Origin: Flavobacteriales bacterium
GTDB taxonomy: Bacteria; Bacteroidota; Bacteroidia; Flavobacteriales_D; Crocinitomicaceae
Direction: 5' to 3'
Length of the DNA stretch: 43,169 nucleotides
Assembly: GCA_947475275.1 (NCBI GenBank)
Contig: CANJNE010000011.1
Span: 1 to 43,169 of the forward strand
Below, one piece after another: positions 1,812 through 29,708 of the stretch; the stretch's first letter is position 1; the number at the start of each line of letters is the position of its first letter. Both the position numbers and the translations under genes were made by a program. The notes under the pieces were generated by a model. It had not been told where the DNA came from and made no database searches. It was given only the letters and a program-made list of their open reading frames with translations.

Positions 1812-2684
1812 ATTCGAGTTATAGTTGTTTATGTTGTTAACGTTGTTATTGTTAACATTGGTGGAGCTAGTTCCTCTCGCACGGAAACGAAAATTTATAT
1901 AAAAGGAAGTGTAGTGATACCAGTCATTTTTTGAACGAATTGCTGATTTAAACCCATCATAATCATCCCTGAGTGTAAAAGTTGTCTTATGTTCAATTCC
2001 TATTGTGGCTCTTTTACCAACACGGTATCCAAGTCCGAATCCAAGAGAGGGCATGAAATCTATATTCCATTTATCAATGTCAGCACTTGTCCCTTCCAAA
2101 TTGGTTTCATATTGGCCGTCATGAAGATTAAAGTAGTAAGAGGAGCTTCCAACTTGATTGGGATCATAATTATAGATGCCCCCGGAACCGCCGATAGAAT
2201 CTCCGAAGCGCAAATCACCATAAGTTTGATTCCATACCAACCCAATTCCTCCAAAAATATATGGATCAAAACCTGTCTTTTCAGTGATTCGGTTTGCATG
2301 TAAAACCAATTCAAGACTGACTTCATGATTTTGAGCCTGAAAATTGTTAACACCAAATCCAAGTGAATCCATGTAAGGCTTTAAGGTGTTGCCTGTATAA
2401 CCTGCCGAATCCGTTTTAGATAAATCCTGGCCATACCAATAACCCCCCAAATATCTTCCACGAATATCAAAGCTGAAAGGCTTCCCGTAGGAATAATTGT
2501 ACGATTTGCCCAATGTAAAACCGTAACCAACATGTGTTTTATTAGTTACGTCAGATGATTGCCAAGTTCCACCGAGATTTAGCCCTAAAAACCACTTAGA
2601 ACTAATGTCGTAATCCACTTTTTGTGCATCTAAACCAAAGGTTAAAAGCATGAAAAAGCATAGGACATAGTAAAATTTCTTCAT
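1..2684 (-). CDS. Outer-membrane beta-barrel protein with tandem Ig-like repeats, partial (C-terminus outside window)
   Basis: An open frame runs from an ATG at 2684 to the left edge without a stop, giving 894 residues so far. Residues 1-21 look like a signal peptide (MKKFYYVLCFFMLLTFGLDAQ cut into a hydrophobic core ending in DAQ). Residues of about 22-270 show Gly/aromatic-rich alternating strands typical of an OmpA-like or porin-like outer-membrane barrel, ending in the strand YHYTSFYINFRFRARG. An Asn-rich linker (residues 276-291, 11 of 16 Asn) follows. From Cys292 onward there are tandem Ig-like units of about 92-95 residues, each with a Cys at its start and a second Cys in an N-x-CG motif, and a central VNG/LNG turn. 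Six units are complete and a seventh is cut. The function is unknown; surface adhesion is inferred from the architecture. The gene is divergent from the T9SS type B gene. Confidence 0.85.
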   Translation of the reverse strand, partial: MKKFYYVLCFFMLLTFGLDAQKVDYDISSKWFLGLNLGGTWQSSDVTNKTHVGYGFTLGKSYNYSYGKPFSFDIRGRYLGGYWYGQDLSKTDSAGYTGNTLKPYMDSLGFGVNNFQAQNHEVSLELVLHANRITEKTGFDPYIFGGIGLVWNQTYGDLRFGDSIGGSGGIYNYDPNQVGSSSYYFNLHDGQYETNLEGTSADIDKWNIDFMPSLGFGLGYRVGKRATIGIEHKTTFTLRDDYDGFKSAIRSKNDWYHYTSFYINFRFRARGTSSTNVNNNNVNNINNYNSNCLTPEIVFTAPFNNTSIVSTNGGLYTVKASVKNLETSQGLSFTVNGVNINNFSFNPEMDYFEANVYLSPGANNIQLTATNSCGQDQETTQLVYNQCFAPLVAFTNPTIVGTVVENQTYTVQASISNLNGGQLSVMHNNNQVYNYYLDPTTGSLSFTVYLSTGENTFTINASNDCGSVVSTSYVKYERCLSPTIYSNALNANGITVSSQSFNFSAILNYASSNQIAITQNNQQLTNFSYNSITGQIDKAVFLNPGLNTFVITATNACGATSQTYTVNYTRECVNPIVNINSIANNSLVFSSDLAFSAQVLNVVNLSGITLSINGINVQNFNFNSSTGAVFGNFVLIPGVNTIILRATNDCGTVTQTIAVNYQTCNLPVISSINPVTDISSVNTTTFNFEATITNLIGQQDVTLNLNGQNLSNFNFQSATGKVSANFNLNLGSNILIVYAQNNCGSISKTYVIERLTCNAPAILLSNALASGSTTTSSQFNLLGTVANVSSVNGITVTLNGQVVSNVTFNTANGQISKTLTLSPGYNTINVSAVNSCGSISESYSLNYLNCTAPTISTISPSSLNSSVNNEAFTFSANIGNVTQSQGVTVTLNGQ

Positions 2685-2779
2685 AATAATTGATTTAAAT
2701 TCTATTAAATAGAACGATTTTTATGCCAAAATTCCTTAATTTCAGTCAATAAAGAAAATAAAATGGCACTTTTCTCGAT

Positions 2780-2787
2780 TATATTTG
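2780..2787 (+). promoter_or_regulatory. Bacteroidota -7 element (TATATTTG)
   Basis: This is a perfect match to TAnnTTTG, 19 bases before the ATG of the T9SS type B protein, within the 122-base divergent intergenic region (2685-2806). No clear upstream TTG element at the usual distance was found, so it is supported by the -7 motif only. Confidence 0.4.
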
Positions 2788-2806
2788 GATTTGCTTTTCT
2801 GAAGTT

Positions 2807-4099
2807 ATGAATTTAAGACTCTTTTTAACTTCTTTCTTTTCCCATATTATTTTGGCTTCAAACAGCTGGGCACAGCCAATTAACAATGATTGCGTCAGTG
2901 CAATAGAACTTTGCCCTAATACTATCGGAAACTATACTAACTCTGGATCAAATGTGACCTTTTGTCCAGATTGTGAGGATGATTTTTCATTTTGTTTTTC
3001 ACCAAATAATTCAATTTGGTTTACTTTTACAACCAATGCTGCGGGAGGAGATGTTGAAATTGCATTTAACAATTTAATATTCGAAAACAATCCTGGTCAA
3101 GATAACGCTATTCAGGCAGCTGTATTAGAGGCAATTGTTCCTTGTGATGCTGCATCGTACAGCTTGGTGAGCAATTGCGTATCTAATGGATTAGGGTCAT
3201 TTATCTTAACCGCACCTGCCTTAACTCCATCAACAACTTATTATATTGTGATTTCTGGTGATCAAAGTGGTCCTGGAATTACAATACCGGCTGCTTGTAC
3301 ATTCAATCTGGAAATAACCGGATTAGGAATAGAAAGACCAGTTCCATCAATCTCTTTAACCACAAGTTCAACGAACATTTGTAAAGATGATCCCGTTACG
3401 GCAAATTGTGAAACAGTAAATTGTCCAGGTAGCGGTATTTATCAATGGTATATTGATGGGAATTTGGTTGCAACCACTACTGATACTTTTTTTATGACTT
3501 CTAATATTTCTGATGGTTCGATAATTACCATTGAAACGGACTGCTATACTTTGTGTACTGAAATTGTAAGTGCAAGCTCGGGAGCTTTCGATGTTTTTGA
3601 TTTCATTCTGGATGCGGGAAGTGATGTTATCGTTTCTGGAGATAATTCAGTTCAGCTAAATGGAACAACAAGTGCCGCATCATACTTATGGAGTCCAGCT
3701 TTTGGTTTGAGTGATCCGACAATTTTAAATCCAATTGTAAATATTAACGAGACAACCACATTTTCTTTAACGGCCACAGAGAATGGTTGTACACAAACAG
3801 ATCAGGTTACTGTTACTGTTGATGATGTTTTATTTTTTCCAACAACCTTCTCTCCGAACGGAGATGACATAAATGAAAAATGGATAATAGAGGGAATTGA
3901 AAAATACCCCAATTGTTTGGTTCGCATCTTCAATCGTTGGGGCCAAGAAATTTATCAATCAACCAACTATAATGAAAGCAAAGCATGGGATGGATCAAGT
4001 AACGATAAACCCATGGCTGAAGGTGTATATTTTTATACCGTAGATTTGAATGAAGACAACTTCCCTCTTTACAAAGGAAGTATAACGGTTATTAGGTGA
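2807..4099 (+). CDS. Secreted protein with T9SS type B sorting domain
   Basis: The 430-residue protein has an N-terminal signal peptide ending around NSWAQ. The middle (about residues 25-170) is Cys-rich with NDCxxAIELCP and a WFTF strand, a layout common in Bacteroidota surface proteins. An Ig/PKD-like part follows, with VTVTVDD closing it at about residue 340. The last 85 or so residues are the gliding-motility-associated C-terminal domain (CHU_C): it opens with FFPTTFSPNGDDINE, contains VRIFNRWGQEIYQS and AWDG, and ends GVYFYTVDL...YKGSITVIR. This domain is the type B signal for export through the type IX secretion system. The stop overlaps the start of the PorP/SprF gene, so the two are probably co-transcribed and translationally coupled, a frequent pairing in this phylum. 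The substrate or ligand is unknown. Confidence 0.9.
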   Translation: MNLRLFLTSFFSHIILASNSWAQPINNDCVSAIELCPNTIGNYTNSGSNVTFCPDCEDDFSFCFSPNNSIWFTFTTNAAGGDVEIAFNNLIFENNPGQDNAIQAAVLEAIVPCDAASYSLVSNCVSNGLGSFILTAPALTPSTTYYIVISGDQSGPGITIPAACTFNLEITGLGIERPVPSISLTTSSTNICKDDPVTANCETVNCPGSGIYQWYIDGNLVATTTDTFFMTSNISDGSIITIETDCYTLCTEIVSASSGAFDVFDFILDAGSDVIVSGDNSVQLNGTTSAASYLWSPAFGLSDPTILNPIVNINETTTFSLTATENGCTQTDQVTVTVDDVLFFPTTFSPNGDDINEKWIIEGIEKYPNCLVRIFNRWGQEIYQSTNYNESKAWDGSSNDKPMAEGVYFYTVDLNEDNFPLYKGSITVIR

Positions 4100-5037
4100 T
4101 GATTGGCAGGAAGAAGTTTATTTTAGTTTGCTGTATACTTTCACTAATTGGGCGGTCTGTTTTCGCACAACAAAACACCCAATTTTCTCAATGGAATTGG
4201 CATCAATTTCCTTTAAATCCTGCACATGCAGGAATTAAATCCTATATGGAAATTCATTGTCTTTACCGATTGCAGTGGGTTGGATTTGATGGAGCACCAA
4301 GAAGTGGGTTCATTGGCTTATCCGCACCTCTATATGCCAAACGCAAAAAATACTTGAGTGCGAGGCATGGATTGGGATTCCGAATGGAATCAGATCGCAT
4401 AGGTCAATTCAACACTACCCGTTTCAATCTTGCCTATGCTGGGCATTTTAATTTCACTAAAGATACAAGGCTTTCTTTGGGGTTATATGGTGGATTGATG
4501 CAATTTGGCTATGACCCATCTGGATCTACCACAAATAGCCCTGACCCAACGGTTATGAAAGAAAGTTCTGCGATTTTACCTGATGCATCTTTTGGAGCAT
4601 GGTGGAATGGTGAAAATTATTACATTGGATTGGTTTGTGATAATTTATTGGCATCTCGGTGGGATGATTTGGGGAGCGATTCGAGACAACGATTTCATAC
4701 ATCACTGACTGCAAGTTATCGCATGCAAATCAATTCAGTGCTTACATTTTTACCCGCGGTAATGGTTAAAATCCCTCCAAAAGGAAAAGTTTCAGCTGAT
4801 GTATTAGGTGTTTTGAATTACAGAAATCTTATAGACTTCGGGTTGGGGTTTCGAACAGGAGATGCAATAATAGCGCAGTTTGGAATAAAGGTTACAAGTC
4901 GTTTTGCACTCTTTTATTCGTATGATGCGGGGATTTCTGCTTTCAGATCTAACCACAGTGGTTCGCATGAAATTTCCATCGTATTCAATAACGGAATTCA
5001 GGCAAATGGTCCTGGAACTAAATGCCCAATGTTTTAG
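4099..5037 (+). CDS. PorP/SprF family type IX secretion membrane protein
   Basis: The protein has a signal peptide ending in SVFAQQ, then the family's start QFSQW...FPLNPAHAGI, and a series of alternating beta strands with FNLAYAGHFNF, SLGLYGGL and the late YSYDAG. Length (about 312 residues) is usual for PorP/SprF. These outer-membrane barrels are associated with T9SS; SprF is needed for type B cargo such as SprB in Flavobacterium. A GTG at 4096 is in frame, but the ATG at 4099 gives a normal start and overlaps the preceding TGA by one base. The immediate upstream neighbour carries a type B signal, so this is probably its dedicated partner; that is an inference from context. Confidence 0.88.
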   Translation: MIGRKKFILVCCILSLIGRSVFAQQNTQFSQWNWHQFPLNPAHAGIKSYMEIHCLYRLQWVGFDGAPRSGFIGLSAPLYAKRKKYLSARHGLGFRMESDRIGQFNTTRFNLAYAGHFNFTKDTRLSLGLYGGLMQFGYDPSGSTTNSPDPTVMKESSAILPDASFGAWWNGENYYIGLVCDNLLASRWDDLGSDSRQRFHTSLTASYRMQINSVLTFLPAVMVKIPPKGKVSADVLGVLNYRNLIDFGLGFRTGDAIIAQFGIKVTSRFALFYSYDAGISAFRSNHSGSHEISIVFNNGIQANGPGTKCPMF

Positions 5038-5095
5038 GTTTTTAAGCATGCATAGACATTATCCAAAATGAGGTGTTTATAATTCTTAAACTAAC

Positions 5096-5129
5096 TTTGA
5101 AAAGCGTTTCATTAGTTTAATCATATTTG
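5096..5129 (+). promoter_or_regulatory. Possible promoter for the OmpA lipoprotein
   Basis: TTTG at 5096-5099 is followed after 22 bases by CATATTTG at 5122-5129, a one-mismatch version of TAnnTTTG. The spacing is close to the roughly 19-base spacing of Bacteroidota promoters. It lies 25 bases before the ATG at 5155, which supports that start over the TTG at 5131. Confidence 0.35.
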
Positions 5130-5154
5130 CTTGTTAACGATTAAACATACTAAT

Positions 5155-6117
5155 ATGCGCATACTCATTTATTCAACAGCTATTTTTTTAATCACGTCTT
5201 GTGTGCCTATTAAAAAATATAATGAATTATTAGCCAAGGAACAGGCCTGTTCAGAGGAACTAGATAAATATAAAAACAGTTCTTTGGATTGCGATGGAAA
5301 ATTAAAGGATGCCGAGGCCGATTTGAGTTCAGCAAAGGAAAAATTGACACAACTGGCAAAAGATACTGCATCATTGGGGTTGAAAATTAGAGATTTAACA
5401 ACACAAAAAACCAAGTTGACCACTGAAAAGGAATCCTTGAACGCTGAATTGGAAAAATTAAGGGATAAAGGTGCTAAGCAAACAGCTACGCTACAAGCTG
5501 AATTGGATGCCAAAAACCTGGAATTACAGCGCAAGGAGGATGAATTGCTTTTACTTGAAGCAGAATTGAAGAAAAAAGAAGAATTGCTTGCGGAACGTGA
5601 ACAACGTGTCAATGAACTTGAAGAATTGTTGAAGAGGAAGGATGAGGCTGCTCAATTGTTAAAATCAAAAATTGCAAATGCATTAAAGGGTTTTGAAAAT
5701 CAAGGATTGACAGTCGTTGAAAAAGACGGTAAAATTTATGTCAGTATGGAGGCAAAACTACTTTTTGCGTCGGGAAGCACTGCAGTTGAAGCAAATGGCA
5801 AAAAAGCATTAATTGAGCTGGCTAAAGTTCTTGAATTGGAGAAAGATATTGAAATCATCGTTGAAGGACACACTGACACGGATAAATTGGCAAGTAGCTC
5901 ACATCCAAAGTCGAATTGGGAACTTTCTGTACTAAGAGCTACAGCTGTTGTTGACATATTAATATCCAATTCAAAAGTGAATCCGGCACAATTAATGGCC
6001 GCAGGAAGATCAGAATTTCATCCTGTTGACGCTTCAGACAAGGCAAAAAACCGTCGCATCGAGATTATTCTCTCTCCAAACTTAAATGAGCTTTACGAAC
6101 TTATTAATCAGGATTAA
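5155..6117 (+). CDS. OmpA family lipoprotein with long coiled coil
   Basis: The start chosen is the ATG at 5155, because it places a short hydrophobic signal directly before the lipobox ITSC (Cys about residue 17). An in-frame TTG at 5131 would only add a polar extension. Residues of about 25-180 are rich in Glu, Lys and Leu with heptad spacing, predicting a long coiled coil. The last 120 residues are an OmpA-like peptidoglycan-binding domain: LLFASGS, VEGHTDTD, NWELSVLRA and KNRRIEI are its conserved motifs. The protein probably tethers the outer membrane to peptidoglycan across an extended periplasmic spacer. Length is about 320 residues. It follows PorP/SprF by 117 bases and probably has its own promoter. 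Confidence 0.88.
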   Translation: MRILIYSTAIFLITSCVPIKKYNELLAKEQACSEELDKYKNSSLDCDGKLKDAEADLSSAKEKLTQLAKDTASLGLKIRDLTTQKTKLTTEKESLNAELEKLRDKGAKQTATLQAELDAKNLELQRKEDELLLLEAELKKKEELLAEREQRVNELEELLKRKDEAAQLLKSKIANALKGFENQGLTVVEKDGKIYVSMEAKLLFASGSTAVEANGKKALIELAKVLELEKDIEIIVEGHTDTDKLASSSHPKSNWELSVLRATAVVDILISNSKVNPAQLMAAGRSEFHPVDASDKAKNRRIEIILSPNLNELYELINQD

Positions 6118-6680: not shown

Positions 6681-7631
6681 TTAAAATATTTCTTTTGCAA
6701 TGGCTTTGACCATAGAAGAATTTGACATGGTGTAATAATGAATACATGGCACCCCTGCTTCCTTTAACTCTTTGGATTGAGCGATGCCCCATTCAATTCC
6801 CAATTGTTCAACATCTTTATTGTTTTTACATTTCAGCAATTCGGTAGATAAAGCATTTGGGTAATCAATTTTAAAGAATTTTGGAAGGAAGGTAATATGA
6901 TCCAAAGTTTTGATGGGTTTAAGCCCTGGAATAATTGGCACTGTTATTCCAATTTCTCGGCAAGCATTAACAAAATCAAAATATTTTTTATTGTCAAAAA
7001 ACATTTGGGTAACAATATATTCTGCACCTGCATCAACTTTTGCTTTGAGGTATTGAAGGTCGGTTGTCATATTCATCGCTTCGAAGTGCTTTTCTGGATA
7101 TCCAGCGGTACCAATGCAAAAATCTGTAGGTTCTAATTGCACATCGTCCATCATATAACTTCCGCTATTAATGTCTGATATTTGACTAATGAGTTCCACT
7201 GCATATTTATGTCCATCGGTATGAGGACGAAAGGTACTTTCAGTTTTGATAGAATCTCCTCTTAATGCTAGAACATTGTCAATACCTAAAAAATGTAAAT
7301 CAATTAAGGCGTTTTCCGTTTCTTCTTTACTAAATCCTCCGCAAATTAGATGAGGAACTGCATCGACTTGATATTTATTCATAATTGCTGCGCATATCCC
7401 AACGGTTCCGGGACGTTTGCGAATGGCTATTTTTTCTAGTAAACCATTTTCTCTTTCCTTATAAATAAATTCCTCACGGTGGTAAGTTACATTGACAAAC
7501 CTAGGTTTGAATTCCATCAGAGGGTCTATTCCATCAAAAATAGACTGAATACTTTTTCCTTTCAATGGAGGAAGAATTTCAAAAGAAAACAAGGGTTGTT
7601 TTGCGGCTTTTAAATGTTCTGTAACTTTCAT
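6681..7631 (-). CDS. metF: Methylenetetrahydrofolate reductase
   Basis: This enzyme reduces 5,10-methylene-THF to 5-methyl-THF for methionine synthesis in the cytoplasm, using FAD and NAD(P)H. The 316-residue length fits the bacterial single-domain TIM-barrel enzyme. Visible family motifs are FSFEILPP near the N-terminus with the catalytic Glu18, VNVTYHREE, PHLICGG, DNVLALRGD, FCIGTAGYPEKH and GAEYIVTQMFFDN. The FSFEILPPLKGKS form is typical of Bacteroidota. It follows ispD by 69 bases and has its own TATCTTTG element 19 bases upstream, so it is probably transcribed independently. The hypothetical exported protein follows 9 bases downstream. Confidence 0.96.
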   Translation of the reverse strand: MKVTEHLKAAKQPLFSFEILPPLKGKSIQSIFDGIDPLMEFKPRFVNVTYHREEFIYKERENGLLEKIAIRKRPGTVGICAAIMNKYQVDAVPHLICGGFSKEETENALIDLHFLGIDNVLALRGDSIKTESTFRPHTDGHKYAVELISQISDINSGSYMMDDVQLEPTDFCIGTAGYPEKHFEAMNMTTDLQYLKAKVDAGAEYIVTQMFFDNKKYFDFVNACREIGITVPIIPGLKPIKTLDHITFLPKFFKIDYPNALSTELLKCKNNKDVEQLGIEWGIAQSKELKEAGVPCIHYYTMSNSSMVKAIAKEIF

Positions 7632-7650
7632 TATTTCAAATCGTGAAGTG

Positions 7651-7658
7651 CAAAGATA
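7651..7658 (-). promoter_or_regulatory. Bacteroidota -7 element (TATCTTTG) for metF
   Basis: A perfect TAnnTTTG on the minus strand ends 19 bases before the metF ATG. It predicts a leader of roughly 15 bases. Confidence 0.45.
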
Positions 7659-7700
7659 AATTAGAATTTGAAATTCATAGATTTAACTAATTCATCAATA

Positions 7701-8384
7701 TTATTTTTGGATCTTTAATTTCGTTAAGGCTTCAGCAAAAAGTAAGTCCATCTGCGTTGTAATCTTTATATTCTCCTCATTTCCCTGAACACAATGAATG
7801 CTGTAACCTGCTTCTTCTATTAAAGATGCATCATCAGTAATATTATGATGGAATGGCAGACTGTATGCTTTTGTAATTGATTCCTTTAAAAAACATTGTG
7901 GTGTTTGCACATGAACATATTCTGACCTTGAAACAGCCTGTGTTAGTTCGTCATTTATTTTTCTTAATGATTCCTTTAAAGGAATTACAGGAATTACTTG
8001 ACCAAATTGTTTCACTGCGTCGAAACACTTTTTAATTGTGTCATTAGAAACTAATGGCCTTACTCCATCATGAACAGCAATAAATTCACCTTCAGAAAAT
8101 TCCAGGGCGTTTTTAATAGAATCATACCGTTCTTTTCCACCATCAACGATTAAATGAGAAATCTTACATTCGTGTTTCATTAAAAGCTCATTCCAGAAGC
8201 TTTTCCAATCTGAAGGAAGGGTTAAAATCAATTGAATACTCGGGTCAAAATCATAAAACTTCTCAATTGTATGAAGTAATATGGGTTTATCATTCAATTT
8301 AAGGAATTGCTTTGGAAGATCGCTTACCATGCGTTTTCCAATACCACCTGCGGTAATAATGACCGTAAATTGGGTTTTTGCCAT
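7701..8384 (-). CDS. ispD: 2-C-methyl-D-erythritol 4-phosphate cytidylyltransferase
   Basis: IspD transfers CMP from CTP to MEP in the non-mevalonate isoprenoid pathway. The protein is 227 residues, the usual size. The nucleotide-binding motif AGGIGKRM is at residues 12-19 with the catalytic Arg18 and Lys25 (PKQF). Further motifs are GGKERYDSIKNAL, VHDGVRP, and RSEYVHVQTPQCF, which holds the MEP-binding region. It indicates that isoprenoid precursors are made by the MEP pathway. The gene lies between a well-formed terminator upstream (8401-8428) and metF downstream, so it may start its own transcript. Confidence 0.96.
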   Translation of the reverse strand: MAKTQFTVIITAGGIGKRMVSDLPKQFLKLNDKPILLHTIEKFYDFDPSIQLILTLPSDWKSFWNELLMKHECKISHLIVDGGKERYDSIKNALEFSEGEFIAVHDGVRPLVSNDTIKKCFDAVKQFGQVIPVIPLKESLRKINDELTQAVSRSEYVHVQTPQCFLKESITKAYSLPFHHNITDDASLIEEAGYSIHCVQGNEENIKITTQMDLLFAEALTKLKIQK

Positions 8385-8400
8385 TGATTAAAGTTAGCAT

Positions 8401-8428
8401 AAAAAAAGGTTGCTGGAAACCAACAACC
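8401..8428 (-). terminator. Rho-independent terminator
   Basis: Read on the minus strand, a 9-bp stem (GGTTGTTGG with CCAGCAACC, one G-T wobble) closes a TTT loop and is followed by seven T. It lies just after the stop of the 60-residue membrane protein and before ispD. Confidence 0.85.
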
Positions 8429-8451
8429 TCATAAATGTTATATGACTAAAC

Positions 8452-8634
8452 TTATTTAAGTTGATTCGGATTTTCTTCAGCGCGCTTGTTGAATTTGCGT
8501 TGCCAATTTAACCAATAAAACAGACCAATAAATCCTAAAACGATAACAGCATTGTTGAAAATATTACCTACAGACTCAAAAAACCCAAAGGTCCAAGTCA
8601 AAAAATCTCCTATTGCGTAAAAAAATGTACTCAT
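8452..8634 (-). CDS. Small membrane protein of 60 residues
   Basis: The protein has an aromatic amphipathic N-terminus (FFYAIGDFLTWTFGFF), one transmembrane segment at about residues 28-45 (VIVLGFIGLFYWL) and a charged tail RKFNKRAEENPNQ. The layout resembles the short DUF6341-type proteins of flavobacteria, but I cannot confirm membership by eye. The gene is supported by a good terminator 24 bases after its stop and by lying on the coding strand between rsmA and ispD, with spacing that leaves no overlap. Function is unknown. Confidence 0.65.
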   Translation of the reverse strand: MSTFFYAIGDFLTWTFGFFESVGNIFNNAVIVLGFIGLFYWLNWQRKFNKRAEENPNQLK

Positions 8635-8709
8635 ATCAATCTTTTTATCTGGTACAAAGAAAATAATTTTTCTTTAAAAGAGCATCATAAACAAGAATAA
8701 TTCATCCTT

Positions 8710-9495
8710 TTATTCGTGTAAGCGAATTTGTTCAATTGCCAAGGTAAGTTCTACAAATTGCTCTACAGAGAGCACTTCAGGTCTCAAATTGAGGTAAGGA
8801 TGTTCAAAATTGGGATTAGCGATTATTTGTTTGAGTGAATTTCTGATTGTTTTTCTTCTTTGATTGAAAGCCATTTTTACAACTTGAATAAAGAGTTTTT
8901 CATCACAAAGTAATTTTTCTCTTGTGTTTCTTACGCAACGTATAACTCCAGATTTCACTTTTGGTGGAGGATTAAATACATGTTGGTCAACTGTGAAACA
9001 ATAATTGATTGTATAAAATGCCTGCAGAAGGACACTCATAATACCATACGTTTTCGATCCAGGTTTTTCTGCAACACGTTCAGCAACTTCTTTCTGAAAC
9101 ATGCCCATAATTTCGGGAATCTGATCACGGTAGTCTAGACACTTAAAAAGTATTTGAGACGAAATATTATATGGAAAATTCCCTACCACAGCAAATGGTT
9201 CAGTTCCCATAAGGTCAAAAAGATTCAGTCTTAAAAAATCTCCTTCAAAAATACGTCCGTTGAGTTGAGAAAAATTCGATTTTAAAAAAGCTATAGAATC
9301 TTTATCTACATCTATGACATAAACGTCTAAATCACCTCTTTTAATTAAAAATTCTGTCAAAGCCCCCATACCCGGGCCAATTTCTAATACCTTTTTACAA
9401 TTGTTGTGATTTCCGTATTGACTGCTAATTTTTTCACAAATATTTTTATCCGTAAGAAAATGTTGGCCGAGATGTTTTTTTGCGCGAACAGACAT
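8710..9495 (-). CDS. rsmA: 16S rRNA (adenine1518-N6/adenine1519-N6)-dimethyltransferase
   Basis: RsmA (KsgA) dimethylates two adjacent adenines in the 3' terminal helix of 16S rRNA during 30S maturation, using S-adenosylmethionine. The start chosen is the ATG at 9495, which gives the family N-terminus RAKKHLGQHFL and lies one base after the DUF4286 stop. An ATG at 9513 would overlap DUF4286 and add six residues outside the family pattern. The SAM-binding loop LEIGPGMG is at residues 37-44 and the catalytic NFPY at 106-109, where most members have NLPY. NQRRKTIRNSL is the C-terminal rRNA-contact motif. Length of 261 residues is normal. Confidence 0.96.
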   Translation of the reverse strand: MSVRAKKHLGQHFLTDKNICEKISSQYGNHNNCKKVLEIGPGMGALTEFLIKRGDLDVYVIDVDKDSIAFLKSNFSQLNGRIFEGDFLRLNLFDLMGTEPFAVVGNFPYNISSQILFKCLDYRDQIPEIMGMFQKEVAERVAEKPGSKTYGIMSVLLQAFYTINYCFTVDQHVFNPPPKVKSGVIRCVRNTREKLLCDEKLFIQVVKMAFNQRRKTIRNSLKQIIANPNFEHPYLNLRPEVLSVEQFVELTLAIEQIRLHE

Positions 9496-9496
9496 A

Positions 9497-9808
9497 TTAC
9501 TTGAATTCTTCAATTACATTAAGAAGCGTGCGAAAAGCAGCAAAACGTCCTTCAAATTTTTCTGAATGCTCTTTCTGAAGTTTAGGTGCGTGGGTAGTCC
9601 GATATTTTTCTAGCAATTCTGTGTTATTACACAAATAAGTAATTGCATAACTATTAGCCTCATCTTCTTCAGTTTGCACTTTTGAAAATCTACTTTCGAT
9701 AAAACACCCGGTTGCCATAACGTCAGGAATATGAACGGACCTCATCCAATTCAACCACTCTTCTTCAACTGAAGGATCAATAGCAACAGTAACATTGTAT
9801 AAAATCAT
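9497..9808 (-). CDS. DUF4286 family protein
   Basis: The 103-residue protein starts MILYNVTVAIDP and contains WLNWM...HIPDVMATGCF and SYAITYLC, which fit the DUF4286 family found beside rsmA in Bacteroidota. The fold is probably a small ferredoxin-like alpha/beta domain. No catalytic residues are evident and no function is established. It is the first gene of an operon with rsmA (one-base spacing). A TACCTTTG element sits four bases before the ATG, so its mRNA may be almost leaderless. Confidence 0.85.
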   Translation of the reverse strand: MILYNVTVAIDPSVEEEWLNWMRSVHIPDVMATGCFIESRFSKVQTEEDEANSYAITYLCNNTELLEKYRTTHAPKLQKEHSEKFEGRFAAFRTLLNVIEEFK

Positions 9809-27061: not shown

Positions 27062-27622
27062 TTAAATGACAAAACAATTCGAACGAAGGATATACTTGTG
27101 ACCTTCTTCAACAAGTAAAGCTTCGTGATGGTGTTCATGACCAAAAATCACCGCGCCACCTTTCGGAGGTTTTACGTTCATTCCAAAATCATTAAAATGT
27201 GTTGCTCCCCCTATAAAATCATCTGTAAGATAAACAACCAGTGTAAAGACGGAGGACACTTCACCAATAACAGAAGCAGCATCAGAATGCCTTGCGATAT
27301 AATCTCCAGGGTTATACTTATACACTTCTACATTGGTAGGATGCATTTTAATGGAAAATGTGTTTTGACCATCACTCAAGGTAATTTCAGCTAACTTTTT
27401 ATTCATTTCTTGAATGATTAACTGATCTTGGACAAAAACTTCCTGGTTGTGTCTTCCTTGCTCAAATTGACGCGCCTGTTTAAAGCCTTTTTGATAAACC
27501 GTTTGAATAATATCATCACAACTTTTATCATCAATGAGTTCAGGAACAACCCAAATTTTATTTTCAGAGACAAATGTTTTTTTCTTTGGAGTCTCCGAAA
27601 AGAATCTTCTGATGTTAAACAT
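27062..27622 (-). CDS. 2OG-Fe(II) oxygenase family protein
   Basis: The 186-residue protein has the prolyl-4-hydroxylase-type double-stranded beta-helix. The iron ligands are visible as His112 and Asp114 in ARHSDAA and His166 in HHEALLVEEGHKYILRSN; Arg180 or Lys176 is placed to bind 2-oxoglutarate. YLTDDFIGGATHF is the typical strand and loop before the distal His. The predicted reaction is hydroxylation of an amino-acid side chain or another small substrate. Its ATG overlaps the stop of the radical SAM gene by eight bases, so it is translationally coupled to that gene and likely acts in the same pathway. I do not know its substrate. Confidence 0.88.
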   Translation of the reverse strand: MFNIRRFFSETPKKKTFVSENKIWVVPELIDDKSCDDIIQTVYQKGFKQARQFEQGRHNQEVFVQDQLIIQEMNKKLAEITLSDGQNTFSIKMHPTNVEVYKYNPGDYIARHSDAASVIGEVSSVFTLVVYLTDDFIGGATHFNDFGMNVKPPKGGAVIFGHEHHHEALLVEEGHKYILRSNCFVI

Positions 27623-28751
27623 TTAGCAGCTCTTCAGTTTTTTCAACAATACTATCTACAATTATCTTTCTGCTGTATTTACAATACTTTGTTTCGGTAC
27701 TAGCAAAACTTCCATTTTCATAAAGTTTATTACTAGGAGCACCTCCTCCACAAACATCAAAATAATCACAACTGTCTTTACACATTTTTATACCCGCCAT
27801 AATTTCAGTAAACATTCTTTGAAATTTTGGTGTATCGAGTGCAGACATGAAGCCCGAATCATTAATGTTACCAAGAGAAAAATCGCCATATTTCTCATCT
27901 GTCATTCCTAATAACTCTGGAGAGAATGTAGAGAAGTTTCCATCCGTATCCAATGAAATGATTTTTAGCGGTCTCAACATTTGGCCAAGGTGAAACTGAT
28001 TTCCTTCAAAATTATTTTTCAAAAACATTTCATTAAAGCCGAATATTTCACGGATGTGAATATAATTTTCGGGCTCCAATTGCAGATTATAAATGGTTTT
28101 CCAGAAATGTTTCAATTTAACTTCTTGTTCACTTTGAATGGTGCTTCGTACATTTACTCCATCTTCTTCATCGATATTAAACCCTAGTGATCTGCATCCC
28201 AATTCTTTGAAAAACTCATAAATTTCGTTCGGATAATCAAGAGCAAATGAAGTCAAAACTGCAATTGCGCTAAAACTTATATCATTTTTCTTCAAGAATT
28301 CAACACCTTTCATGGTGCTTTCAAAAGTTCCTTTACCTTTTCGATTCAATCTGAATTTATCATGAATGAATTGAGGTCCATCACAACTGATACCCACAAT
28401 CATTCCTGTTTCTTTAAAAAAATCACACCATTCCTGATTAATCAAGGTAGCATTGGTTTGAATATGCTGCCGAATTCTAATCCCCTCAGGTGTAATTTCT
28501 TTCAGCCTTTCGTAAATTTCTCTGTAAAAAGGTAATTTTACCGCCATGGGCTCGCCAGCGTGCCAAACGATGCTGAATTCGTCCTTAACCAAATTTTCAT
28601 CAAACAGGGTTTGAACGGATTTGATTACAGTATCCGTGGATATTTTTTTAGTACTTGCCCTATCCGGTAAATAACAATAGGAACAATCTATATTACAAAA
28701 TGATGATCCTTGAATAATCAATAAATCAATCGGTCCAACAGGTATTTTCAT
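27615..28751 (-). CDS. Radical SAM/SPASM peptide maturase, GrrM/OscB-like
   Basis: The N-terminus PIDLLIIQGSSFCNIDC has the radical SAM cluster motif C19-x3-C23-x2-C26 followed by YLPD, and WHAGEP at residues 63-68, both typical of the GrrM/OscB group of cyclophane-forming maturases. The C-terminal SPASM-type cluster region has Cys324, Cys328, Cys334 and Cys357; the CGGGAPSNKLYENGSF motif and STETKYC closely resemble the GrrM pattern. Known members crosslink aromatic residues in glycine-rich peptide repeats. Here there is no adjacent Gly-rich precursor. The gene is the middle of a three-gene cluster and overlaps the downstream oxygenase by eight bases. Assignment to the group is by recalled pattern. 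Confidence 0.88.
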   Translation of the reverse strand: MKIPVGPIDLLIIQGSSFCNIDCSYCYLPDRASTKKISTDTVIKSVQTLFDENLVKDEFSIVWHAGEPMAVKLPFYREIYERLKEITPEGIRIRQHIQTNATLINQEWCDFFKETGMIVGISCDGPQFIHDKFRLNRKGKGTFESTMKGVEFLKKNDISFSAIAVLTSFALDYPNEIYEFFKELGCRSLGFNIDEEDGVNVRSTIQSEQEVKLKHFWKTIYNLQLEPENYIHIREIFGFNEMFLKNNFEGNQFHLGQMLRPLKIISLDTDGNFSTFSPELLGMTDEKYGDFSLGNINDSGFMSALDTPKFQRMFTEIMAGIKMCKDSCDYFDVCGGGAPSNKLYENGSFASTETKYCKYSRKIIVDSIVEKTEELLNV

Positions 28752-28776
28752 GGTTATATTTAGATTAAGCTTAATG

Positions 28777-29616
28777 CTATCCGAACAAATTTAAAAAAAA
28801 TCTTTTTGGAAGTCTAAAATGACCTCTAACTGCTAAATTAACATCAGGGGATGCGGTTCCAATAGTTGATCCATCGTGGATGATGTTTTCGGTGGGTGCA
28901 ATGTAAACTTCCATGGGGTCAATTCTCACCCTTGTTACGGGGTATTCTGGATATTTATCAAAAAAAGCGTGCATTACAGGATAAGGATTTTGACCACCTA
29001 AAACAGGTTGTGAACCAAAGAGATTAGCAATTTTATCAAATTGAATATTGATGAACAATAAGTATCTGGGTTCGAGTCCAAGATTGATACAAAAACGATT
29101 TCTGGCAATCAGTTTATCTGGAGTTTCTCGAGACTCGAAGCTATCTAAATGAAGACCAATAAAAAATTCATCCCGTTTATTGAAAGTCGTAGTTGTCAAG
29201 TTAGCATCACCCAAAAAAATATTATGTGGAATGGCCGTGCCTATCTGAGGGGATGAACGCTCAAAATAATTTATGGTATCATTCACCAAGTTCTTGTATT
29301 TTGGGGTTTGAGAAATTCTTTCAAGTTCCTGTCGTGTTCCATGAGCCCCCATATTCAAAGCTTCAAATCTTTGACGCAATTTTTTAGGCAATTTAACCAA
29401 GGCCACATCATTGAATGTTGACCTATCTTTCTCTGGAAGAACGAGCAATTTCATTTCTTCGTCGCTAGGTAATCGCCATTCTCCTTTAGGCAGAAAACAA
29501 CGGTTTTTACACGGCCATCCATTGATTTCTTTTACCTCTTGGGTTCCAAGACTCAACTCAATGCGATTGCTTAAACCTTTATCGACAAAAATTCTAATTC
29601 CTTGTTGCAGATTCAT
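28777..29616 (-). CDS. Unrecognised protein, possible divergent Fe(II)/2OG oxygenase
   Basis: I do not recognise this 279-residue protein with confidence. It has no signal peptide or membrane segment. The N-terminal part contains a close Cys pair (Cys36, Cys40), a Trp-rich stretch and GEWRLPSDEE. The middle holds FFIGLHLDSF with His156 and Asp158, and the C-terminal part has YIAPTENIIHDGST with His247 and NLAVRGHF with Arg264. The order HxD, distal His, Arg is what a Fe(II)/2-oxoglutarate double-stranded beta-helix shows, so an oxygenase fold is inferred. It is the first gene of the cluster (25 bases to the radical SAM gene) and is preceded by a perfect TATGTTTG element. Confidence 0.75.
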   Translation of the reverse strand: MNLQQGIRIFVDKGLSNRIELSLGTQEVKEINGWPCKNRCFLPKGEWRLPSDEEMKLLVLPEKDRSTFNDVALVKLPKKLRQRFEALNMGAHGTRQELERISQTPKYKNLVNDTINYFERSSPQIGTAIPHNIFLGDANLTTTTFNKRDEFFIGLHLDSFESRETPDKLIARNRFCINLGLEPRYLLFINIQFDKIANLFGSQPVLGGQNPYPVMHAFFDKYPEYPVTRVRIDPMEVYIAPTENIIHDGSTIGTASPDVNLAVRGHFRLPKRFFLNLFG

Positions 29617-29640
29617 TTGGAGAATAGGCGTTTAATTATA

Positions 29641-29648
29641 CAAACATA
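29641..29648 (-). promoter_or_regulatory. Bacteroidota -7 element (TATGTTTG) for the modification cluster
   Basis: A perfect TAnnTTTG on the minus strand ends 24 bases before the ATG of the 279-residue gene. It suggests that this gene, the radical SAM gene and the oxygenase are transcribed together as their own unit, separate from the upstream hydrolase. Confidence 0.45.
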
Positions 29649-29708
29649 AAATAAATTCAGTATTAACTTTTTTAGCTTAATTTAAATTTTGAAGAATATT
29701 TGAAAATA

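Follow-up and report, generated by a model that had tools for sequence, protein, structure and literature searches.

A GrrM-type radical SAM maturase encoded with two predicted 2-oxoglutarate oxygenases, one of them MicC-like, in a Crocinitomicaceae cassette that lacks a neighboring precursor gene

The DNA considered here (hereafter, the window) is a whole stretch of 43,169 nucleotides from a Flavobacteriales bacterium of the Crocinitomicaceae (assembly GCA_947475275.1, contig CANJNE010000011.1, positions 1 to 43,169), and it holds a compact cassette of three genes on the minus strand. Judged from its sequence, the cassette encodes a real triceptide-type maturase, i.e., a radical S-adenosylmethionine (SAM) protein of the GrrM/OscB type, together with two putative oxygenases predicted to use iron and 2-oxoglutarate, one of which is newly assigned as a relative of MicC; the chemistry of all three is a prediction. 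The pairing of GrrM with MicC is a robust finding. The variant in the window is odd for its third gene, which encodes an oxygenase of the prolyl-4-hydroxylase (P4H) type, and for its missing precursor.

Layout of the cassette

The features of the cassette and its upstream edge are as follows.

28777..29616, minus strand: putative MicC-like 2-oxoglutarate/Fe(II) oxygenase, 279 residues, first gene of the cassette (phmmer match to PDB 9vkm chain A; predicted ligands H156, D158, and H247)
27615..28751, minus strand: predicted GrrM/OscB-type cyclophane-forming radical SAM/SPASM maturase, 378 residues (TIGR04261, 437 bits; conserved cysteines)
27062..27622, minus strand: putative P4H-type 2-oxoglutarate/Fe(II) oxygenase, 186 residues, overlapping grrM by 8 bases (PF13640; phmmer matches to P4H structures)
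29641..29648, minus strand: TAnnTTTG-like candidate promoter element, 24 bases ahead of the first start codon (from sequence; weak)
29617..29708, no strand: 92-base upstream gap, too short for the usual precursor gene (list of open reading frames [ORFs] and profile scan of window ORFs of at least 25 residues)

The predicted order of functions is oxygenase, crosslinker, oxygenase, in a compact and operon-like arrangement. All three genes are intact and full length, keep their iron ligands, and overlap or nearly abut: a 25-base gap lies between the first and second genes, and the second and third overlap at 27615-27622, as had been described in an earlier model-made note on this DNA (the sequence-only reading). 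Upstream, the end of an esterase gene lies 92 bases from the cassette, and downstream, a response regulator gene on the opposite strand ends 4 bases past the last stop codon; the cassette therefore has no room for a further ordinary gene. Its base composition is that of the surroundings and does not stand out. A promoter element had also been claimed ahead of the group. The word TAnnTTTG, which we take to be the Bacteroidota -7 word, is indeed present at 29648-29641, but because the same word occurs 55 times in the window (22 and 33 times on the two strands), it is weak evidence of a promoter.

The radical SAM protein is of the GrrM/OscB type

The 378-residue protein scores 437 bits against the GrrM/OscB model TIGR04261 (cut-off, 310) and 326 bits against the AmcB model, below the cut-off of 425. 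The motifs on which the sequence-only reading had based its GrrM/OscB assignment can all be located, namely, C19, C23, and C26 (CX3CX2C), WHAGEP from residue 63, CGGGAPSNK from residue 334, and STETKYC from residue 351, and the assignment stands. In an alignment of the window protein with 39 relatives (three more distant radical SAM rows were dropped beforehand, and four matches of fewer than 220 residues, L036, L037, L045, and L051, were never in the set), the three SAM cysteines are kept in 40 of 40 rows, and the C-terminal cluster cysteines C324, C328, C334, and C357 are kept in 39. Identity to the 37 closer loci is 34-45%. The nearest rows in the tree are L002 and L005; the tree, in which long branches and an odd amino-acid makeup are flagged, gives the window protein no supported place within GrrM, and no starred set holds it. 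Weak matches to the viperin models of PADLOC (E 1e-7) were taken as superfamily matches.

In sum, the protein is, by its sequence, a GrrM/OscB-type cyclophane maturase, and crosslinking is the activity that its family predicts. According to the OscB report (PMC11002830), OscB links C7 of Trp to the beta carbon of Asn or Asp and C4 of Phe to the beta carbon of Asn, in each case two residues on. Because the window GrrM belongs to the same family as OscB, it would be expected to crosslink likewise.

The unassigned protein is MicC-like

The 279-residue product of the first gene had been called unassignable. This no longer holds: in a phmmer search of PDB sequences, its single match at an E of 10 or below is 9vkm chain A (E 1.6e-29, query residues 4-267), which is named as the alpha-ketoglutarate-dependent non-heme iron oxygenase MicC. 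The homology is distant but extends over nearly the full length, which places the protein in the MicC type. In an alignment of 16 MicC rows, 11 residues are invariant, including H156, D158, and H247 (16/16), and the iron- and 2-oxoglutarate-binding roles of the MicC residues are predicted from the superfamily. An AlphaFold2 model of the window protein was made from 13 rows (predicted local distance difference test score [pLDDT], 84.6). With this model, Foldseek finds FtmOx1 and KdoO at an E of about 3e-4, with modest TM-scores of 0.34-0.40 in the first ten rows, and VIA-align finds KdoO (6a2e; Z 9.7, 197 aligned residues, root-mean-square deviation of 4.2) and WelO5 (Z 9.7); 9vkm is absent from the fold matches shown. 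With the HxD...H ligands and these matches to the fold of 2-oxoglutarate oxygenases, the protein can be assigned as a MicC-like member of that superfamily. It reaches the cut-off of no Pfam family, NCBIfam, PADLOC, and PHROGs give no match to it, and literature searches, for which subscription papers were mostly out of reach, found no paper on a MicC oxygenase.

What would such an enzyme make? Hydroxylation would be the default outcome for both MicC and the P4H-type protein. FtmOx1 forms endoperoxides, and WelO5 is named as a halogenase in the fold search; because the fold neighbors of MicC include these two, its product may be something other than a hydroxylated residue.

The P4H-type oxygenase

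The 186-residue protein scores 34.1 bits against PF13640 (cut-off, 27) and matches the P4H structures 3itq and 5hv0 by phmmer (E 2.4e-8). The HxD...H ligands H112, D114, and H166, named in the sequence-only reading of the protein as a prolyl-hydroxylase-type oxygenase, are present, in agreement with that reading. Matches to a Cas-associated "2OG" model of PADLOC (E 1e-14) and to phage 2-oxoglutarate oxygenases of PHROGs were taken as superfamily matches. Among 240 genomes of the window's family, relatives of the protein are found in 10 others. Eight of these relatives had their surroundings inspected (L113-L120); by eye, all eight lie beside genes for KptA-like RNA 2'-phosphotransferases and seven also lie beside a calcineurin-like phosphoesterase gene, with a Pfam check of the neighbors confined to L113.

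GrrM and MicC recur together

Forty other GrrM loci were scanned with a MicC profile built without any row from them. MicC lies near GrrM in at least 6 of the 40 (L005, L012, L013, L014, L028, and L033; E 2e-47 to 9e-28), at distances within about 1.6 kb, with the MicC gene of L033 on the other strand. The count is a floor because several loci run off the end of a contig and three others of the set (L036, L037, and L040) hold only remote radical SAM relatives (23-27% identity). Beside a planctomycete GrrM, L011:2013-3182 encodes a weak, degenerate-looking MicC relative (E 4e-7), by eye without the iron ligands. A plasmid of Nostoc sp. TCL26-01, which the search with MicC brought up, carries in a row a small W/N-rich ORF of 68 residues, grrM, and MicC, and genome G604 carries in consecutive order a 212-residue precursor with YSDFSNYSDF repeats, GrrM, a second radical SAM protein, and MicC. 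The window's own genome and G604 are the two with MicC among the 240 genomes of the family and the two with GrrM among 399 genomes of the order (the family and order samples differ). A precursor-like gene rich in W, F, or Y directly precedes GrrM in 6 of the 8 GrrM-MicC loci outside the window (L005, L013, L014, L033, L105, and L107); at the other two, L012 and L028, no precursor is visible.

In a sample of 395 genomes of the phylum, GrrM passes an E of 1e-50 in one (the window's own), and MicC has matches in four: the window's own, G153, G200, and G268, the last judged to be due to chance. Two further Bacteroidota GrrM loci, L002 and L010, come from another collection. The G268 match (E 8.9e-4) is a 442-residue ORF that by eye resembles another enzyme, and the MicC counts rest on a profile built without it. 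In G153 and G200, which belong to the same class as the window's genome, a small ORF and a maturase resembling YhhB (343 and 355 bits; cut-off, 445) are followed by two and three tandem MicC genes, respectively. MicC is thus found beside both GrrM and YhhB-like maturases, i.e., it recurs with cyclophane-type radical SAM proteins of two kinds. No MicC was found in the phage records, and no MicC or GrrM relative was found in the viral contigs.

A proposed explanation and its rivals

Taken together, these observations lead us to lean, with somewhat more confidence than doubt, toward a triceptide-type modification cassette of three iron enzymes whose substrate is encoded away from it. We propose that GrrM would form three-residue cyclophanes, each closed, as by OscB, by a carbon-carbon bond that joins an aromatic ring to the beta carbon of the second residue after it. 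MicC, with 2-oxoglutarate and O2, would oxidize (most simply, hydroxylate) residues in the GrrM substrate, and the P4H-type enzyme would probably oxidize the same substrate with Fe(II), 2-oxoglutarate, and O2. That substrate would be encoded elsewhere in the genome.

Several observations weigh against this proposal. Neither the cassette nor the window holds a precursor with a core of the aromatic-x-N/D kind (profile scan of ORFs of at least 25 residues), so the nearby precursor of a triceptide cluster is missing, and the window's genome yields no precursor to TIGR04260 or to a profile of 15 aligned precursors chosen from GrrM loci, in which one arginine is invariant and another, five positions later, almost invariant; most of these precursors have a C-terminal core that abounds in W, F, or Y together with N, D, or Q. 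A His-Asp repeat pattern, taken from a truncated ORF upstream of the L002 grrM, gave three single matches in the genome versus one in the control and no useful candidate. Nor is GrrM regularly joined by the P4H gene, which accompanies it in 1 of the 40 other loci (L010, from Dyadobacter, where it is fused to a glycosyltransferase-like domain), and the G604 cluster has no P4H gene. A conserved three-gene unit, the co-conservation that the sequence-only reading had suggested checking, is therefore rejected; MicC is the partner that recurs with GrrM, also outside the Bacteroidota. MicC itself occurs on four plasmid records, of which the Nostoc one alone is known to carry GrrM. On the one examined of two Methylocystis plasmid records with MicC, the gene lies in the midst of TonB and iron ABC transporter genes, and on a Streptomyces plasmid no radical SAM gene is listed within 6 kb of MicC, in a gene table that is incomplete. 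Finally, a sister genome that keeps only a stub of MicC, described below, suggests that the cassette may be in the process of being lost. How much should the empty precursor searches count? In a leave-one-out trial, the precursor profile recovered 13 of its 15 members at an E of 10 or below when they were scored directly, and the genome search adds a first filter of its own; the empty search is thus only moderately informative. The two members missed are those of L033 and of G604, and of the genomes with a cluster G604 is the closest relative. A precursor that has diverged and lies at an unlinked site is therefore still conceivable.

The history of the site bears on an alternative that we regard as unlikely, namely, that the cassette is a relic in which the precursor gene has been lost and three orphaned enzymes are decaying as in the sister species. 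The closest sister genome, G001 (64% complete), shares both flanks (esterase, 82% identical; response regulator, 82%). Between them, it has a WG-repeat gene (L106:1630-3510) and, between that gene and the regulator, a MicC stub of 22 codons in the right orientation (MNLQHGILTNVGKGLSNQIDFT-stop). Aligned start to start, the stub and residues 1-22 of the window MicC have 13 identities (tblastn E 0.002 without composition correction). Its score of 60 is reached by none of 1,000 first-order resamplings of the stretch (best, 54) and by none of 643 control windows from loci of the genus (best, 48); aligning the plain DNA gives a weaker contrast (33 versus a best of 30 in 1,000 shuffles). The simplest reading of these sequences is that at least micC was present here in the common ancestor and that the sister lost it. 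Decay in the window itself would also be consistent with the absence of GrrM from the 25 other genomes of the genus (E 0.001) and with the lack of an adjacent precursor, which most of the other GrrM-MicC loci (6 of 8) possess. Against decay, however, the three ORFs of the window are full length with intact ligands, and the composition of the cassette matches its surroundings.

Might the substrate be an ordinary cell or surface protein rather than a dedicated small precursor? The failure of the window and genome searches to find a precursor fits this idea, as does L012, where GrrM and MicC, with no small precursor seen, adjoin a divergent gene for an RTX-repeat protein of 1,178 residues; this large protein begins MSWGWGNWYNWYNWSNY and so has a core-like motif at its N terminus. 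L012 is, however, a single example, L028 showed neither a precursor nor such a protein, and small precursor-like genes do stand before GrrM in most other GrrM-MicC loci; we consider the idea improbable. We find it rather doubtful, too, that in this precursor-less cassette a cyclophane-type radical SAM enzyme and two different 2-oxoglutarate oxygenases together act on a protein of the cell or its surface, possibly an ordinary one, that is encoded elsewhere and becomes both crosslinked and hydroxylated; if true, such a cassette would serve posttranslational protein modification and not the production of small peptides. A core carried by the C-terminal tail of MicC itself, RLPKRFFLNLFG, would be very hard to credit: the tail contains F-L-N, lies past the conserved domain, and has a pLDDT below 50 at residues 273-279, but in the other 15 MicC proteins the tail is of variable length and has no motif of this kind in common, and we rejected it as the substrate. 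We give still less credence to the possibility that the radical SAM protein matures sulfatases or is some other enzyme that does not act on peptides, with unrelated oxygenases as neighbors. Its best PDB relatives by sequence are indeed anaerobic sulfatase-maturating enzymes, but it scores 179.2 bits against the sulfatase maturase model TIGR03942 (cut-off, 349.45), against 437 over 310 for GrrM; sulfatase maturase identity, which the sequence-only reading had proposed to check, is rejected.

Relation to known systems

The window shares with the triceptide (OscB/GrrM) pathways the maturase subfamily, with TIGR04261 over cut-off, and the Fe-S cysteines; it differs from them in having no adjacent precursor gene and two putative 2-oxoglutarate oxygenases in its operon. 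Cluster 41, "H(Y)NR," as described in PMC9062424, is similar in combining a cyclophane-type radical SAM protein with a putative alpha-ketoglutarate/Fe oxidase, whose function is stated there to be unknown, and unlike the window has a peptidase and a YNR/HNR precursor. The locus of Dyadobacter sp. CY261 (L010) is likewise a Bacteroidota GrrM with an adjacent P4H-type domain but has a 73-residue precursor, the fusion noted above, and no MicC found in the fetched locus.

The window MicC is claimed by no family above cut-off in the libraries searched, yet relatives of it recur by GrrM and YhhB-like maturases in Bacteroidota, Cyanobacteria, and Pseudomonadota. GrrM-MicC clusters point to peptides that would be both crosslinked and oxidized, and the small complete ones (precursor, GrrM, and MicC) make the unexplained role of an Fe/2-oxoglutarate oxidase directly testable. 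The version in the window poses a separate question: what do such enzymes do without a neighboring precursor?

Other enzymes at related loci

Further enzymes accompany GrrM or MicC elsewhere. In two Actinomycetota, a glycosyltransferase-2-like gene follows GrrM (L034:6929-7978 and L041:6918-7931; glycosyltransferase-like proteins, not counted as P4H), and in Dyadobacter, L010:7108-8505 fuses a glycosyltransferase-2-like domain to a P4H domain; glycosylated, hydroxylated cyclophane peptides are possible products of loci of these types. At L012, by GrrM in Burkholderiales, a single open frame (7134-9611) encodes a tryptophan halogenase (PF04820, 450 bits) and then a MicC domain, and the RTX-repeat gene lies at 2268-5804; a large protein could be crosslinked, halogenated, and oxidized there. 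In two Pseudomonadota loci, a gene of the TP_methylase family (PF00590) lies between GrrM and MicC (L013:7290-8270 and L014:7189-7983), and the precursors there carry FNQFSNFNQFSNFNNFNNK-type repeats at their ends. The second radical SAM/SPASM gene of G604, between GrrM and MicC (L105:1239-2432), is a different one, with PapB as its best NCBIfam model (108 bits, below cut-off). The two clusters with a YhhB-like maturase span L051:6806-11243, with two MicC paralogues in tandem, and L052:7496-16634, with three; the former includes an aspartyl-protease-like gene, and a C39-peptidase ABC exporter is near the latter. On the Methylocystis plasmid, the MicC relative (L108:5815-6828) sits among TonB receptor, iron ABC transporter, and nitrogenase-component-like genes, and because of this setting, the role of some MicC proteins may lie elsewhere than in peptide crosslinking.

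Elsewhere in the window, a CHU_C sorting-signal protein and PorP/SprF at 2807-5037 are components of type IX secretion, as expected in Bacteroidota, and the CHU_C, PorP/SprF, SprB, and Por_Secre_tail genes that the window holds fit with that phylum.

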